64,000 bases of DNA from Rhodothermales bacterium (GTDB lineage Bacteria; Bacteroidota; Rhodothermia; Rhodothermales; VXPQ01). The stretch covers positions 1 through 64,000 of the forward strand of contig JAJDWX010000032.1 in the NCBI GenBank assembly GCA_022825385.1, read 5' to 3'. Below are positions 5,765 to 61,591 of this stretch, one piece after another. The notes below the pieces were generated by a model that made no database searches, had not been told where the DNA came from, and saw only the letters and a list, made by a program, of their open reading frames with translations. Both the position numbers and the translations under genes were made by a program. Numbering within the stretch: position 1 is the stretch's first letter; every line of letters starts with the position of its first letter.

Positions 5765-5798
5765 GGTTATATCCAGCCATTTTATGTGTCTATAGGGG
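5765..5798 (+). promoter_or_regulatory. Bipartite promoter-like motif GGTTAT-N17-GTCTATAGGGG, copy 1
   Basis: GGTTAT at 5765-5770 and GTCTATAGGGG at 5788-5798 are separated by exactly 17 bp. Four other copies keep this spacing even where the spacer sequence differs. The layout resembles an extracytoplasmic-function sigma promoter (GGnnA -35, GTCTA -10). A structured RNA and the coiled-coil gene at 5964 lie downstream. Promoter activity is inferred. Confidence 0.55.
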
Positions 5799-5872
5799 CA
5801 CATCGGTCAGGATGTCTTTGCCAGGGCCGAGCCGGCGCCGCGCCTCATCCGAGGCCGGCGTCTGGTTCGGCC
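5795..5872 (+). ncRNA. Candidate structured RNA, copy 1 (two hairpins)
   Basis: Directly after the GTCTATAGGGG motif, a short hairpin pairs 5800-5804 with 5811-5815 (ACATC/GATGT). A long GC hairpin pairs 5825-5840 with 5856-5872, with one bulged U. The same hairpin order recurs in two minus-strand copies (6666-6745 and 8213-8286) with compensatory changes. It could be a free small RNA or the 5' leader of the gene at 5964. Both ends are estimates. Confidence 0.5.
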
Positions 5873-5963
5873 TTCGCGCCCGGCCAGGGCCGAATAGTAC
5901 GGGCAAGCGCGAAACAAAGCGCTGCGAACGATATATTATCCTTTGTAACCATCTGCACAAGCC

Positions 5964-6266
5964 ATGGTCAATACACTTGCCATAGCCCGCAAGCTTTCTG
6001 CGGCAGGGGTCGAGCAGGCTCAGGCCGAAGCGCACGCCGAAGCGATTGCGAACGCCGTGGAGAAACAGCACGGGGAAACCGCCACAAAAGATTTTGTAGA
6101 GGTGAAAATAAGCGCTGTGGAGGTGAAGATAAGCGCTGTGGAGGCGAAAATAAGCACTGTGGAGGCGAAAATAAGCGCCCTTGAAGTCCGGCTTGTGCGC
6201 TGGGTAGTGGGTACGGCCTTCACTGTAGCGGGGCTCTTGTTCGCCGCCTTGCGATTTATACCGTAA
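5964..6266 (+). CDS. Small coiled-coil protein with C-terminal membrane anchor
   Basis: A 100-residue protein I cannot assign to a named function; the layout resembles DUF1640/CCDC90-like proteins. After an N-terminal helix rich in Ala/Glu, residues 45-72 hold four copies of a seven-residue heptad of the form VEVKISA, encoded by four 21-bp tandem repeats (6096-6179). A single membrane helix follows near residues 78-98 and ends the protein. Copy number of the DNA repeat would change coiled-coil length without breaking the frame. It sits downstream of promoter/RNA copy 1 and shares its architecture, reversed, with the MKKAL proteins at 28898 and 29199. Confidence 0.7.
   Translation: MVNTLAIARKLSAAGVEQAQAEAHAEAIANAVEKQHGETATKDFVEVKISAVEVKISAVEAKISTVEAKISALEVRLVRWVVGTAFTVAGLLFAALRFIP
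6096..6179 (+). repeat. Four 21-bp tandem repeats encoding a heptad
   Basis: Units begin at 6096, 6117, 6138 and 6159 and differ at only a few bases. Each encodes one heptad (VEVKISA, VEVKISA, VEAKIST, VEAKISA). A unit of exactly seven codons can expand or contract without changing frame. Confidence 0.9.
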
Positions 6267-6426
6267 CGGCCTTGGCTGAAACCCTGCGCGCCGAATAGCG
6301 CGGGTCAGTCAAGCGTACCGAGCATATCCTGTCGAAGCGTCGAACGCCGCTTGCCGAACCGGAAAATGCGTAAAACCATGCCGAAAGCAGCGTACGCCAG
6401 TCCGTTGCGTCAAGCTGCTGCATAAG

Positions 6427-6501
6427 CGGTCCGGACGGGACTCGAACCCGCGACCTCCTGCGTGACAGGCAGGCGTTCTAACCAAACTGAACTACCGGAC
6501 C
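6427..6501 (-). tRNA. tRNA-Asp (anticodon GTC)
   Basis: The minus strand folds as a full cloverleaf. The acceptor GGTCCGG pairs with CCGGACC, the anticodon stem CCTGC/GCAGG encloses loop CTGTCAC with anticodon GTC, and the T-loop is GGTTCGAGTCC. The discriminator base is G, as usual for tRNA-Asp. CCA is not encoded. Confidence 0.97.
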
Positions 6502-6665
6502 AACAAAGTACGGGCGCTGTACCCGGAAAATGCGCTACGGTTCCGCCTTGACGGGAATTGCAAGAAGAATGTGCAAGGCAAAAGCGGGCGTTTATTGGGG
6601 GCGCAAGCCCCTTAAGGTCCGGGTATGCGTTTGCGAGGCGGTTGTTTCCCGGCGGCGGAATCAAG

Positions 6666-6745
6666 GGCCGAAGCCGGGCGCCGCCCCAACCCCCAGAGGC
6701 GGCGCCGGCTTGGCCTTAACGCAGGCATCATACCTGATGCGCCCC
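6666..6745 (-). ncRNA. Candidate structured RNA, copy 2
   Basis: Read on the minus strand after the promoter-like motif at 6742-6775. Hairpin 1 pairs GCATCA with TGATGC (6725-6730/6735-6740, loop of 4). Hairpin 2 pairs 6666-6685 with 6698-6715, about 17 bp with one bulged G at 6678 and a mismatch at 6670. Stem bases differ from copies 1 and 3 but pairing is kept. The tRNA-Asp lies 165 bp further along the same strand. Confidence 0.55.
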
Positions 6746-6775
6746 TATAGACACATAAAATGGCCGGATATAACC
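6742..6775 (-). promoter_or_regulatory. Bipartite promoter-like motif, copy 2
   Basis: On the minus strand GGTTAT is at 6770-6775 and GTCTATAGGGG at 6742-6752, again with a 17-bp gap. The 40-odd bases around it are nearly identical to copy 1 but inverted, so copies 1 and 2 form an inverted repeat around the coiled-coil gene and tRNA-Asp. Confidence 0.55.
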
Positions 6776-6904
6776 TGCTAACGAAAAAAAATCAGGGTCT
6801 GTCCGCAGAATCGGGCGTATGCGCTTGCATGGCTGGCGGAGATCGTCGAACTTTGAGAAATTTTCGTATTGCTCATTCCTCTTCTCATTACCCGGAGAGA
6901 TTTC

Positions 6905-8155
6905 ATGCCCATGCTTCCCCAAAAGGATATGCCCGGCAAGGACCGCGTTATGGTTTCAGCCCTGCTTCGCATCCTGCCCGGCGTCTTTTTGTGTATGCTG
7001 TTTTTCGCGAGCGACGTCGCAGCGCAAACCGGGCGAACCTGGCCCGTCGTGAAAATCGGCGGCCTGGGCTACGTGGATTATTTTTACCGGCTTGCCGACG
7101 ACGACGAGACTTTTTTGTGGCAAAATCCCAAAGATACGCTGTGGGACAGCGACCGGGACGCAACCATCAACGACGCATTTCACGGGTTCACGTACAGAAG
7201 GCTGTACCTGACGACCGACGCGGCGATTTCCGAGCGTTTCAAGGCCCGCTTCCGGCTGGAGGCCAGCGATAGCAAAGTGGGGAGCGGCGGGCCGGTACCC
7301 TTTGTGAAAGATATGTGGATCGATTGGAAGTACGCTGGCGATCATTCCGCCAGAATGGGCGTAATGCCGCCCCCGGCGTTTCAGTTATCGGAGGGCGTCT
7401 GGGGCTTCCGCAGCCTGGAAAAAACCATTCTTGACGTGCAGGGGATCAATTCGTCCCGGGATTTCGGAATTCGTTTTGACGGCCCTGTTCCCGTGCGCGG
7501 CGACCTGGTTCGCTATGCGGCGATGTTGGCCAACGGCGAGGGCAATCGCGCAGACAGCGACAAATACAAGAAGGGGTACGCTCGAATTTCCATCCACCCG
7601 TCCGGCAAACTGGTCTTCTCGGCGGGCGTGGATTACGGAAAGCACCAGCTCGCGCCGCAAGAGGATATCTTCATATCTCGCCGCGAGACGCGGATGTCCG
7701 TGTTTGGAGGATACGAGGGGGACAGGCTCCGATTTGGCCTGGAAGCCTTCCGCTATGAATTAACATGGCTGGATGAGACCTACGCGACCACCGTAAGAAG
7801 CAACGAAAACGAGGCTGGATACGTAGAAATACGGCAAAAGCACGAACCAACCATGCGCATTATTGGCCTCAGCGCGTTCGGATCGGCGAAGGTCCATCCG
7901 CGGGCGGAATTCGTGGGTCGGTTGGACCTGACGAGGAACGACGACGATTTCGCGGCAACGTATTCCGACGACCCGTTGCTTAACGAAACGCTGGCGTTGG
8001 CGGGAATCGCTTTCTCTCCCCACGAAAACGTGCGCGTCATTCCCAATCTGTGGTGGTTCGGCTCGGAGATCAAGTCGGATGATTACCCCGACGACGAACT
8101 GGTCGGCAAACGAAAAAACAGGATGCTTCGCGTTACGGTCGAAGTATCGTTTTAG
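6905..8155 (+). CDS. Porin-like outer-membrane beta-barrel protein
   Basis: A 416-residue exported protein. A signal peptide around LLRILPGVFLCMLFF ends at AQ near residue 40. The rest alternates aromatic and polar residues as in OprO/OprP-like or alginate-porin-type barrels (YRRLYLTTDAAI, RFRLEASDS, WIDWKYAG) and finishes with the barrel-type C-terminus LRVTVEVSF. The start at 6905 is preferred because GGAGAG lies 5 bp upstream; ATG at 6950 would also leave an intact signal peptide. Substrate unknown. It is flanked on both sides by inward-facing RNA elements of the same family. Confidence 0.75.
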   Translation: MPMLPQKDMPGKDRVMVSALLRILPGVFLCMLFFASDVAAQTGRTWPVVKIGGLGYVDYFYRLADDDETFLWQNPKDTLWDSDRDATINDAFHGFTYRRLYLTTDAAISERFKARFRLEASDSKVGSGGPVPFVKDMWIDWKYAGDHSARMGVMPPPAFQLSEGVWGFRSLEKTILDVQGINSSRDFGIRFDGPVPVRGDLVRYAAMLANGEGNRADSDKYKKGYARISIHPSGKLVFSAGVDYGKHQLAPQEDIFISRRETRMSVFGGYEGDRLRFGLEAFRYELTWLDETYATTVRSNENEAGYVEIRQKHEPTMRIIGLSAFGSAKVHPRAEFVGRLDLTRNDDDFAATYSDDPLLNETLALAGIAFSPHENVRVIPNLWWFGSEIKSDDYPDDELVGKRKNRMLRVTVEVSF

Positions 8156-8212
8156 AAAAATTTTTCCCTGTGTCGTCGGGATGCAGGCGCGCGCCGCCGG
8201 GGCGCGAAGATT

Positions 8213-8286
8213 GAACCGGGCGCCGCCCCTTGCCCGGAGGCGGCGCCGGTTCCTCCGTAACGCGCACATCATCTCTGATGCACCCC
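8213..8286 (-). ncRNA. Candidate structured RNA, copy 3
   Basis: Minus strand. Hairpin 1 pairs CATCA (8267-8271) with TGATG (8276-8280), loop of 4. Hairpin 2 pairs 8213-8227 with 8239-8252: 14 Watson-Crick pairs and one bulged G at 8220, in the same place as in copy 2. Transcription would run into the 3' end of the porin gene in antisense, so an antisense role is possible as well as a free RNA. Confidence 0.55.
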
Positions 8287-8316
8287 TATAGACACATAAA
8301 AGGGCCGAATATAACC
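8283..8316 (-). promoter_or_regulatory. Bipartite promoter-like motif, copy 3
   Basis: Minus strand: GGTTAT at 8311-8316 and GTCTATAGGGG at 8283-8293, spacer exactly 17 bp. It lies 130 bp past the porin stop and points back towards it. Confidence 0.5.
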
Positions 8317-8480: not shown

Positions 8481-8553
<73 letters not shown>

Positions 8554-8632
8554 CCGCTTGCGCGCCTGTTCCGAACGACGCTCCCCCGTCCGCGCCGATT
8601 GTGCCGGTTTTTTTGGCGGATCGGTTTTTTTA

Positions 8633-9590: not shown

Positions 9591-9623
9591 GGTTATGTTT
9601 GCGCGTTTTTCGGGTCTATAGGG
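9591..9623 (+). promoter_or_regulatory. Bipartite promoter-like motif, copy 4 (comM)
   Basis: GGTTAT at 9591-9596 and GTCTATAGGG at 9614-9623, spacer exactly 17 bp, although the spacer bases are unrelated to copies 1-3. The comM ATG follows 10 bp later, so a transcript starting at the G run would have a leader of only about 13 nt. Confidence 0.55.
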
Positions 9624-9633
9624 AGATTCGTTT

Positions 9634-11196
9634 ATGTTTCACCAACCGCGAACCCTCTCTATGCTTTCGCACGTTCGGAGCGCCGCCACCCGCGGCATAG
9701 ACGCCCTGCCCGTCGAGATTGAAACCAGCATTTCCACGGGCCTGCCCAGTTACGCCGTGGTTGGCCTGCCGGACGGGGCCGTTCGGGAGAGCCGCGACCG
9801 CATCTATGCCGCATTTCAGAATACGGGCATTCCGTTGCCGCACGGCAAAATCACCATCAACCTGGCCCCCGCCGACTTCAGAAAAGAAGGCGCCGCGTTC
9901 GACCTCCCGATCGCGATGGGGTTGCTGGCGGCGCACATGCCGGACGCGCGCGGCGAAGCGCTGGCGCGTACATGCGTTGTCGGAGAATTGGCGCTGAACG
10001 GCGACGTACGCCCGATTCGGGGCGTCTTGCCCATGGTGATGCGCGCCAGAAAAGAAGGCATGACGGCGGTGATGGTGCCTTCCGGCAACGCAAGGGAGGC
10101 TTCTCTGGTCAGCGATATGGAGGTGCTTCCCGTGGCGAATATCCGCGAAGGCCATGCTTTTTTGAAGCAAGCGTCCGGCGCGCCGACGCCATTTCGCGGA
10201 GACGCTCGGGCGCTGGTTTGGGAATCCCCTTTGGCGGATTGCGACTTTTCGGACGTGCGGGGGCAGCAGGATGTGAAGCGGGCGCTGGAGGTGGCCGCGG
10301 CGGGCGGGCACAATGCCATGATGGTGGGGCCGCCTGGCGCCGGCAAGACCATGCTGGCGCGCCGAATCGCCACCATCCTGCCTCCGTTGAGCCAGGAAGA
10401 AGCCCTTGAAACGACGCAGATTCATTCGGTGGGAGGCTTGCTGAGCGAGCAGGGCGTGGTAACGAGCCGTCCGTTTCGGGCGCCGCATCACACCATTTCG
10501 GACGCCGGGCTCTGCGGCGGCGGCAGCAACCCCATGCCGGGAGAGATTTCGCTGGCGCACAACGGGGTCCTGTTTCTGGACGAGTTGCCGGAATTCAAGC
10601 GGCAAGCCCTCGAAGTGTTGCGGCAACCGCTTGAAGAAGGGAAAATAACGATCAGCCGGGCGCGCAGCACGGTGGCCTATCCTGCCCGGTTCATGCTTAT
10701 CGCGAGCATGAACCCCTGTCCGTGCGGGATGCAGCACAGCCTGAACGGAAACTGTACGTGTACGCCGGCCCAGATTCAGCGATACATCGGGAAGATCAGC
10801 GGCCCGCTCATGGACCGCATCGATCTGCATCTCGAAGTGCTCCCCGTGCCGTTCGACACGCTCGCGCATCGCGGAGAAACCGAAGCGTCGTCGTCGGTCC
10901 GGGAACGGGTGATCGCGGCGCGCGAGGCGCAGCGGAAGCGCTTTCGGGGCTTGTCGCGGGCGCATTGCAACGCCCAAATGTCCATGCGCCTTGTCCGAAA
11001 GCATTGTTCGCTGGACGCGACGGGCGAGCAGCTTCTGAAAACGGTTATTCAGCGGCTTGGCCTGAGCGCCCGGGCCTACGGACGCATTCTCAAGGTGGCG
11101 CGCACCATTGCAGACCTTGCCGCTGTCCGGGCGATTCGTCCCGAACATCTTGCCGAGGCGATTCAGTACCGGGTGCTGGATCGTCAGGGTCCCTGA
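9634..11196 (+). CDS. comM: YifB/ComM family Mg-chelatase-like AAA+ ATPase
   Basis: A 520-residue ComM/YifB protein. In order: the N-terminal ChlI-like domain (residues 10-130, GLPSYAVVGLPDGAVRES), the AAA+ core with Walker A GPPGAGKTM and Walker B LFLDELPEF, then the C-terminal Mg-chelatase domain ending in RAYGRILKVARTIADL. ComM is a hexameric helicase promoting branch migration during natural transformation. The ATG at 9634 has GGGAG 8 bp upstream; ATG at 9661 (MLSHVRSAAT) gives the usual family N-terminus. It carries copy 4 of the GTCTATAGGG motif immediately upstream. Confidence 0.92.
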   Translation: MFHQPRTLSMLSHVRSAATRGIDALPVEIETSISTGLPSYAVVGLPDGAVRESRDRIYAAFQNTGIPLPHGKITINLAPADFRKEGAAFDLPIAMGLLAAHMPDARGEALARTCVVGELALNGDVRPIRGVLPMVMRARKEGMTAVMVPSGNAREASLVSDMEVLPVANIREGHAFLKQASGAPTPFRGDARALVWESPLADCDFSDVRGQQDVKRALEVAAAGGHNAMMVGPPGAGKTMLARRIATILPPLSQEEALETTQIHSVGGLLSEQGVVTSRPFRAPHHTISDAGLCGGGSNPMPGEISLAHNGVLFLDELPEFKRQALEVLRQPLEEGKITISRARSTVAYPARFMLIASMNPCPCGMQHSLNGNCTCTPAQIQRYIGKISGPLMDRIDLHLEVLPVPFDTLAHRGETEASSSVRERVIAAREAQRKRFRGLSRAHCNAQMSMRLVRKHCSLDATGEQLLKTVIQRLGLSARAYGRILKVARTIADLAAVRAIRPEHLAEAIQYRVLDRQGP

Positions 11197-60756: not shown

Positions 60757-60790
60757 GGTTACGGGATATGTCCCTGTACGTCTATAGGGG
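60757..60790 (+). promoter_or_regulatory. Bipartite promoter-like motif, copy 5
   Basis: GGTTAC at 60757-60762 and GTCTATAGGGG at 60780-60790 with an exact 17-bp spacer of unrelated sequence. The gene at 60824 starts 33 bp further on, with GAGAGGGAAAC as a ribosome site. Same motif as before comM and the three RNA copies. Confidence 0.55.
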
Positions 60791-60823
60791 TCCATCGAAA
60801 CGCGGACAAGAGAGGGAAACGAT

Positions 60824-61195
60824 ATGACGGACGCAGCGCTATTGCAGGAAAAGGAGGCGGAGATAAAATCCGCTATCGAAAAAATCCTGCGGGATTGCCT
60901 TAAGACGGATGTCGTCTTCGACGATATCGTCATGCGGCTCCAAAATGACTATTACGATGACGAGGTCGAAGAATATCTTCGAATACGAGTCATTTTCGAT
61001 GGGGAGCAGGAATCGCTGAATCTAAGGGAAGCCTGGGGCTGGACCGGGCAGCTTTGGGACGGGCTGGAGGCGCTCGGGATGAAGGCCTTTCCGGTTACGA
61101 CCTTTGTGGAAAAGTCAGAGTGGGAGGAGGACCATGGCGCGCCGGGTTTTTGCCGTGTATGTGCTGTTGCCGCTGCGGGGGTGACGGGGGGATGA
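60824..61195 (+). CDS. HEPN-associated small protein, copy 1
   Basis: 123 residues, paralogous to the protein at 61271. Shared pattern: VVFDDI..., IRVIFDGEQESLNLRE, L.ALGMKAFPVTTFVEKSEW. This acidic 100-residue family is usually followed by an overlapping HEPN gene. Here the place of that partner holds only a 16-codon frame (61134-61184) and the C-terminal tail is Gly/Ala/Cys-rich and unlike the family, so the module seems decayed. Codon use is AT-richer than the surrounding housekeeping genes. Confidence 0.6.
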   Translation: MTDAALLQEKEAEIKSAIEKILRDCLKTDVVFDDIVMRLQNDYYDDEVEEYLRIRVIFDGEQESLNLREAWGWTGQLWDGLEALGMKAFPVTTFVEKSEWEEDHGAPGFCRVCAVAAAGVTGG

Positions 61196-61270
61196 CGGGA
61201 ACCTGCGCCTGCCAGCGACATTCGCTTTGCGCAGGGTCCGATTCACGGAAACACGAAAGGGGGAAACGAT

Positions 61271-61591
61271 ATGACAAAGGAAATATCCAAGGAGCTGCGC
61301 AAGCTCGTTGAAGACGTGTACAAGGAATGCTACGGCGACCATGTGATCTTCAACGATTTCTTCCTCAAGTTCGATTACGACGAATATGGCGGCGAGATTC
61401 TTGTGGTCAAAGCGATTTTCGAGGGCAGCACCCAGAAGGGCTTGCGCGTCGATAGCGCCAGAGGGTTGATACGTCATCTTCGCAACAGGCTTGAAGAAGC
61501 TGGAATAGATGCGTTTCCTATCACGTCCTTTGTGGAAACGTCGGAATGGAAGGAGGTTTATGGAATGGGAGCTTATTTATACGGCGCGTAA
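61271..61591 (+). CDS. HEPN-associated small protein, copy 2
   Basis: 106 residues with VIFNDFFLKFDYDEYGGEIL, AIFEGSTQKGL and GIDAFPITSFVETSEW, matching copy 1 along its length. The last codons overlap the ATG of a truncated HEPN gene at 61560. By analogy to two-gene HEPN modules it may act as the antitoxin-like partner; this is inference. A GGGGGAAACG ribosome site precedes the ATG. Confidence 0.65.
   Translation: MTKEISKELRKLVEDVYKECYGDHVIFNDFFLKFDYDEYGGEILVVKAIFEGSTQKGLRVDSARGLIRHLRNRLEEAGIDAFPITSFVETSEWKEVYGMGAYLYGA

Follow-up and report, generated by a model that had tools for sequence, protein, structure and literature searches.

A two-hairpin RNA element behind a promoter-like motif shared with DNA-uptake genes in uncultured Rhodothermales

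The 64,000-nucleotide stretch of Rhodothermales DNA analysed here (the window; it belongs to contig C24 of a draft genome of 3.02 Mb) carries three copies of a two-hairpin element, each directly behind a copy of a bipartite, promoter-like motif. On balance, sequence comparison favours the interpretation of this element as a short non-coding RNA expressed from a competence promoter, which an alternative sigma factor, probably of the ECF type, would recognize. A previous inspection of the same DNA (the sequence-only reading) had described the repeated motif and the fold behind it, and had missed that the motif is a promoter-like signal common to DNA-uptake genes.

The same two-hairpin fold follows three of the motifs, as the sequence-only reading had stated. 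The first copy lies on the forward strand, with an exact match to the motif GGTTAT-N15-GTGTCTAT at 5765-5793 and the RNA core at 5794-5879, identified by its fold and by 74.9 bits to the covariance model R1 (hairpin P1 at approximately 5798-5817, P2 at approximately 5826-5871); as previously noted, it points toward a gene for a small CCDC90-like coiled-coil protein (5964-6266, forward strand; PF07798 with E=9e-6, a match below the curated cut-off), and it ends ca. 85 bp 5' of this ORF. The second copy, on the reverse strand (exact motif at 6747-6775; core at 6660-6746, 83.5 bits), adjoins and is oriented toward tRNA-Asp(GTC) (6426-6501, reverse strand; found by ARAGORN), and by synteny it occupies the site where four sister species have their only copy. 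The third copy is likewise on the reverse strand (exact motif at 8288-8316; core at 8202-8287, 82.6 bits) and has no sense-orientation gene behind it; its core ends at 8202, 46 bp from the stop codon of a porin-like gene (6905-8155, forward strand), so that the antisense overlap with the 3' end of the porin, as initially proposed, would arise only if transcription reads on. The porin-like ORF shows a signal peptide and an aromatic C-terminus, and yielded no Pfam or other family match and no PDB sequence match; the promoter-RNA cassettes of copies 2 and 3 form direct repeats on both sides of it. The tRNA-Phe(GAA) gene at 8481-8555 (forward strand) is the direct neighbor of the single RNA copy in the sister species. 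A fourth, weak motif site at 60757-60790 (forward strand), of the form GGTTAC-N17-GTCTATAGGGG, is not accompanied by such an RNA; it is followed by two small ORFs (60757-61591 including the motif, forward strand) that resemble each other near their C-termini (VTTFVEKSEW vs. ITSFVETSEW) and have no Pfam match.

In all three window copies, P1 is an 8-bp hairpin with a CAUC/GAUG core, followed by the GC-rich hairpin P2 with a one-base bulge; both hairpins and the single bulge had been recognized from the letters, whereas P2 comprises approximately 19-22 pairs and not the 14-17 originally given. Relative to dinucleotide shuffles, the minimum free energies of window copies 1 to 3 have z-scores of -4.7, -3.8, and -4.7; over ten copies, the z-scores range from -2.8 to -7.1. 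The sequence-only reading had suggested a covariance model and a search of related genomes; R1, built from ten copies, detected the element with 69-85 bits in each of the six genomes searched from the genus (uncultured Rhodothermales), and 108 further genomes from the order yielded nothing at a comparable score. In other genera, R1 gave weak matches (E 0.0016-0.07) that lack the motif and were attributed to chance. The seven further copies, from five other genomes, maintain the pairing, in agreement with the earlier view that RNA structure is being kept, and the paired change cited for it (AACCGG/CCGGTT vs. AAGCCGG/CCGGCTT) is real. Changes on both sides occur at four pairs; in the alignment of the ten copies, 86.5% of the pair cells are standard pairs, and the covariation score of 0.228 compares with 0.185 ± 0.017 in shuffles (6 of 500 as high) and with at most 0.133 in slid versions, figures that come from ten related sequences and lean toward the structure, since it was used to fit the alignment. 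The copies differ by indels of one and five bases, which break the reading frames and leave no conserved ORF; a coding origin of the element was rejected on this ground. With Rfam, searched at the gathering cut-off and also at E up to 5, only tRNAs reached the cut-off (an nhaA-II match, with 22 bits against a cut-off of 70, was rejected as chance); the impression that no known RNA family is involved was well founded, and the RNA is a new family, confined to one genus as far as searched. In combination, a promoter-like motif of its own, a conserved structure and the lack of a conserved ORF are traits of trans-acting sRNAs.

Independently of the structure-fitted alignment, the strand downstream of the promoter-like motif folds more stably than its complement (mean difference -12.1 vs. 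-6.1 ± 1.0 kcal/mol in shuffles) and is richer in G-U pairs (+5.1 per copy vs. 3.1 ± 0.55 in shuffles), as expected if an RNA of this strand is under selection; for window copies 2 and 3 taken alone, the strand preference does not exceed that of shuffles. A terminator scan found no U-run (T-run) of an intrinsic terminator after P2, which leaves the 3' end of the RNA uncertain. These observations also bear on the improbable alternative that the element is a duplicating DNA cassette, REP-like or linked to tRNA genes, in which the hairpin would act at the DNA level or as a bidirectional terminator, and not as RNA. The clustering of the three copies beside tRNA genes, the two direct repeats around the porin-like gene, and the position of P2 of copy 3 just past the porin stop would all suit such a cassette; yet one strand is favored by G-U pairs and stability, P2 lacks a terminator-like T-run, and four species keep a single copy at a fixed locus, with no copies elsewhere in any genome.

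The history of the locus can be read from the six genomes of the genus, four species with one copy each, and this genome and its sister with three. In the four species, tRNA-Asp (same strand, approximately 240 bp downstream) and tRNA-Phe flank the single copy, and the interval contains no porin; a copy at this distance ahead of tRNA-Asp and in this orientation is present in 6/6 genomes. The three-copy genomes combine this old copy with an inverted copy beside the coiled-coil gene and another beyond the porin-like gene. A single copy between tRNA-Asp and tRNA-Phe would then represent the ancestral state, and the promoter-RNA cassette would have undergone two duplications in the common ancestor of this species and its sister. 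Conservation is higher in the promoter and the RNA than in the spacer that follows; the spacer toward tRNA-Asp is the least conserved stretch, and the level increases again over the 75 bp before the tRNA gene, a pattern that suggests two separate units.

Mainly for its constant place ahead of tRNA-Asp, a cis-acting 5' leader has to be considered as the main rival to an independent RNA, although an unlikely one; the element would then serve as an attenuator, stabilizer or processing signal for the coiled-coil gene in the case of copy 1, and for tRNA-Asp in the case of copy 2. The short distance between the end of copy 1 and the coiled-coil ORF would be compatible with a leader, and other coiled-coil genes behind the motif have long leaders as well; however, these leaders show no similarity to the element and no R1 match, and were rejected as instances of the same RNA. 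Furthermore, three unrelated things follow the three copies, copy 3 lacks a sense gene altogether, and the poorly conserved spacer gives way to 75 bp that are conserved as if tRNA-Asp had its own promoter.

The 11-mer GTCTATAGGGG has exactly four matches in the window (5788+, 6752-, 8293-, and 60780+), compared with a mean of 0.29 matches at up to one mismatch in dinucleotide shuffles. It constitutes the downstream half of the bipartite motif, which starts at 5765 for copy 1 and, on the other strand, at 8316 for copy 3; in nearly all copies of the 11-mer in the genome, a second block, GGTTAT or GGGTAT, is found at exactly 17 bp (GGTTAC at the fourth window site), so that the motif consists of an upstream block GGTTATRTT and a downstream block GTCTAT with 17 bp between the hexamers. 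As counted by pattern searches only, exact two-hexamer sites number 21 in this genome, and 19, 5, 7, 4, and 4 in the other genomes of the genus, compared with 1, 1, 0, 0, 0, and 0 for the reversed pattern in the same six genomes. Exact sites of a longer form of the motif occur in 26 of 114 Rhodothermales genomes, and one genome of another family (G011) has 18 exact sites vs. none in the control. Most of the sites are found a short distance upstream of genes; a fixed spacing of the two blocks, an A/T-rich upstream stretch and genes close downstream amount to the anatomy of a promoter, and we infer that the motif functions as one. A T7-like promoter (TATAGGG) was considered and rejected, given that the motif spans 34 bp with fixed spacing and that GGGG is not kept in the sister species; housekeeping sigma-70 promoters were not found in the region, and would be expected far more often in the genome than this motif occurs. 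The 17-bp spacing and the GTCTAT block agree with ECF promoters, which have two blocks at a fixed spacing of 16-17 bp and a GTC-type -10 element; the -35 block, GGTTAT, lacks the AAC that is typical of these promoters, and for this reason the motif is called ECF-like and assigned to no ECF group. An alternative sigma factor of the ECF type probably reads it.

The genes behind the motif link it to DNA uptake. Within this genome, it precedes radC, comM, recA, ssb, an obg-dprA operon, and a gene for a ComEA-type helix-hairpin-helix protein (comEA); a ComF-family gene follows it in a sister species. As a blind test, conducted after the first part of this gene list was known, comEC and dprA were located by Pfam regardless of the motif: a variant, CGTTAT...GTGTCTT (CGTTATGTTT...GTGTCTT), was found with the same spacing just upstream of comEC in all four genomes checked, and the motif was found upstream of obg-dprA in all three genomes checked. 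With comF included, a shared site stands ahead of comEC, comEA, comF, obg-dprA, comM, radC, ssb, and recA, and the predicted gene set behind the motif is that of a natural-transformation regulon. recN carries a variant of the motif with GTCTGT, and in four sister species its spacing is 18 bp, one base more than usual. In the window, comM (9634-11196, forward strand; a YifB family Mg-chelatase-like ATPase, TIGR00368 with 614 bits) has the motif directly upstream at 9591-9619 (forward strand), an arrangement that is kept in sister species and other Rhodothermales, including another MAG of the order (G071, L158); the start of the comM orthologues corresponds to an internal ATG at 9658. Among related Rhodothermales MAGs, JAJECT010000033.1 has a comM with 98% identity, and the comM genes of two chromosomes, OX638293.1 and OX638295.1, are 88-89% identical. 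Members of other families carry the motif as well, ahead of radC, comM, and ssb in G011, of comM in G024, of comEA and radC in G014, and of radC in G092.

Small coiled-coil genes, CCDC90/DUF1640-like or similar, recur behind the motif in several copies per genome (L099, L100, L103, L106, L114, L124, L126, L329, L330; 5964-6266 in the window), and several unrelated genes are found there as well; the regulon is therefore not limited to DNA uptake. Two of the sites (L105 and L106, at 58348 and 62627 of contig C49 in genome G000) have identical 29-bp motifs and near-identical leaders 4.3 kb apart, ahead of an AAA ATPase-like gene and a coiled-coil gene. By eye, the motif at 108605-108638 of contig C7 in the same genome (L107) precedes a RelE/HigB-like toxin-type ORF, a possible toxin-antitoxin member of the regulon, and a DNA cytosine methyltransferase-like gene follows the motif in one sister species (L134, contig C328 of G005).

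Other phyla have damage regulons that depend on special promoters. A non-SOS DNA-damage regulon, with the RNA as a damage-induced sRNA, is accordingly a conceivable but decidedly unlikely reading of the same gene list: recA, ssb, recN, and radC carry the motif, and the first three would fit damage equally well, but it also precedes comEC, comEA, comF, dprA, and comM, whose known roles are mainly in transformation. The list also matches the competence genes of the CRP-S regulon in the Pasteurellaceae, where comF, comM, dprA, radC, and rec2 are among the sites, and Ssb among the proteins (PMC10269479). Competence remains the preferred function of the regulon.

Neither the regulator nor a target of the RNA was found. 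Six ECF genes are present in this genome; when genomes with and without the motif were compared, none of the six tracked the motif across families, and all six are widely conserved. Only the L139-type ECF gave reciprocal best hits in each of the five genomes with the motif, and it occurs in motif-free genomes too. Crude cofolding of the RNA with 40 start regions of the window gave no consistent mRNA target, and the porin start region ranked between 12th and 29th. This result is relevant for an envelope-stress sRNA that represses the neighboring porin, as MicA, RybB or FoxI do, a very improbable alternative. It would draw on the ECF-like promoter and on the porin-like gene that separates copies 2 and 3 here; the regulon, however, concerns DNA uptake and not the envelope, and since the four single-copy species lack a porin at this position and the pairing test gave no signal for porin mRNA, the functional tie to the porin that the sequence-only reading had in mind was not borne out.

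Individual features of the proposed competence RNA have counterparts in known systems. Streptococcus pneumoniae has five related, CiaR-driven csRNAs that repress comC (PMC4507080); they share with the element several similar short sRNAs, related promoters and a tie to competence control, but they are driven by a response regulator, whereas the promoter here is that of the uptake genes themselves, and the two are unrelated in sequence, phylum and promoter. ComX/SigX and SigH define the competence sigma regulons of the Firmicutes (PMC6560143, PMC3486894), in which one promoter type is likewise common to DNA-uptake and recombination genes, with a different motif; the phylum here is Rhodothermota. 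The pneumococcal ComX regulon also includes start sites of uncharacterized RNAs such as srf-29 and tyg, and several competence-induced RNAs are uncharacterized. The CRP-S/Sxy regulon of Haemophilus and its relatives covers nearly the same list of genes (comF, comM, dprA, radC, rec2/comEC, ssb; PMC10269479), but it relies on a palindromic 22-bp activator site, in contrast to the asymmetric motif with its fixed 17-bp spacing. sRNAs under ECF control have been described in envelope stress (PMC11005410); the sigma-E sRNAs MicA and RybB, and FoxI and FoxJ in Fusobacterium (PMC11005410), resemble the element as the non-coding arm of an ECF-sigma-type regulon, but act on envelope proteins and not within a regulon of DNA uptake and recombination. 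A search of the open-access literature yielded no competence regulator or motif for Rhodothermota or Bacteroidota; the regulon motif is a wider novelty than the RNA family.

The proposed element would combine the promoter with a compact non-coding RNA of approximately 80 nt, consisting of the 5' hairpin P1, a short linker, and the 3' GC-rich hairpin P2. Transcription would start a few bases after GTCTAT and yield a presumably stable RNA that begins with P1, ends with P2, and is protected at both ends. Whenever DNA uptake and recombination genes (comEC, comEA, comF, dprA, comM, radC, ssb, recA) are turned on, the RNA would be co-produced, and it would most likely act in trans as a regulator, for example by pairing with mRNAs through its linker and loops.

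Competence control outside of the Firmicutes and Proteobacteria is largely unknown. As a tentative proposal that still falls short of being probable, transformation in Rhodothermales may be under the control of a dedicated alternative sigma factor that reads GGTTAT-N15-GTGTCTAT, undescribed in Bacteroidota and Rhodothermota, and one genus may have recruited a multi-copy regulatory RNA into this regulon to tune DNA uptake. The motif provides a direct handle on this control: it predicts which genes are switched together with DNA uptake, makes the regulon readable in the genomes of Rhodothermales, and limits where the regulator has to be sought. With an RNA family in the regulon, competence would gain a new post-transcriptional layer.
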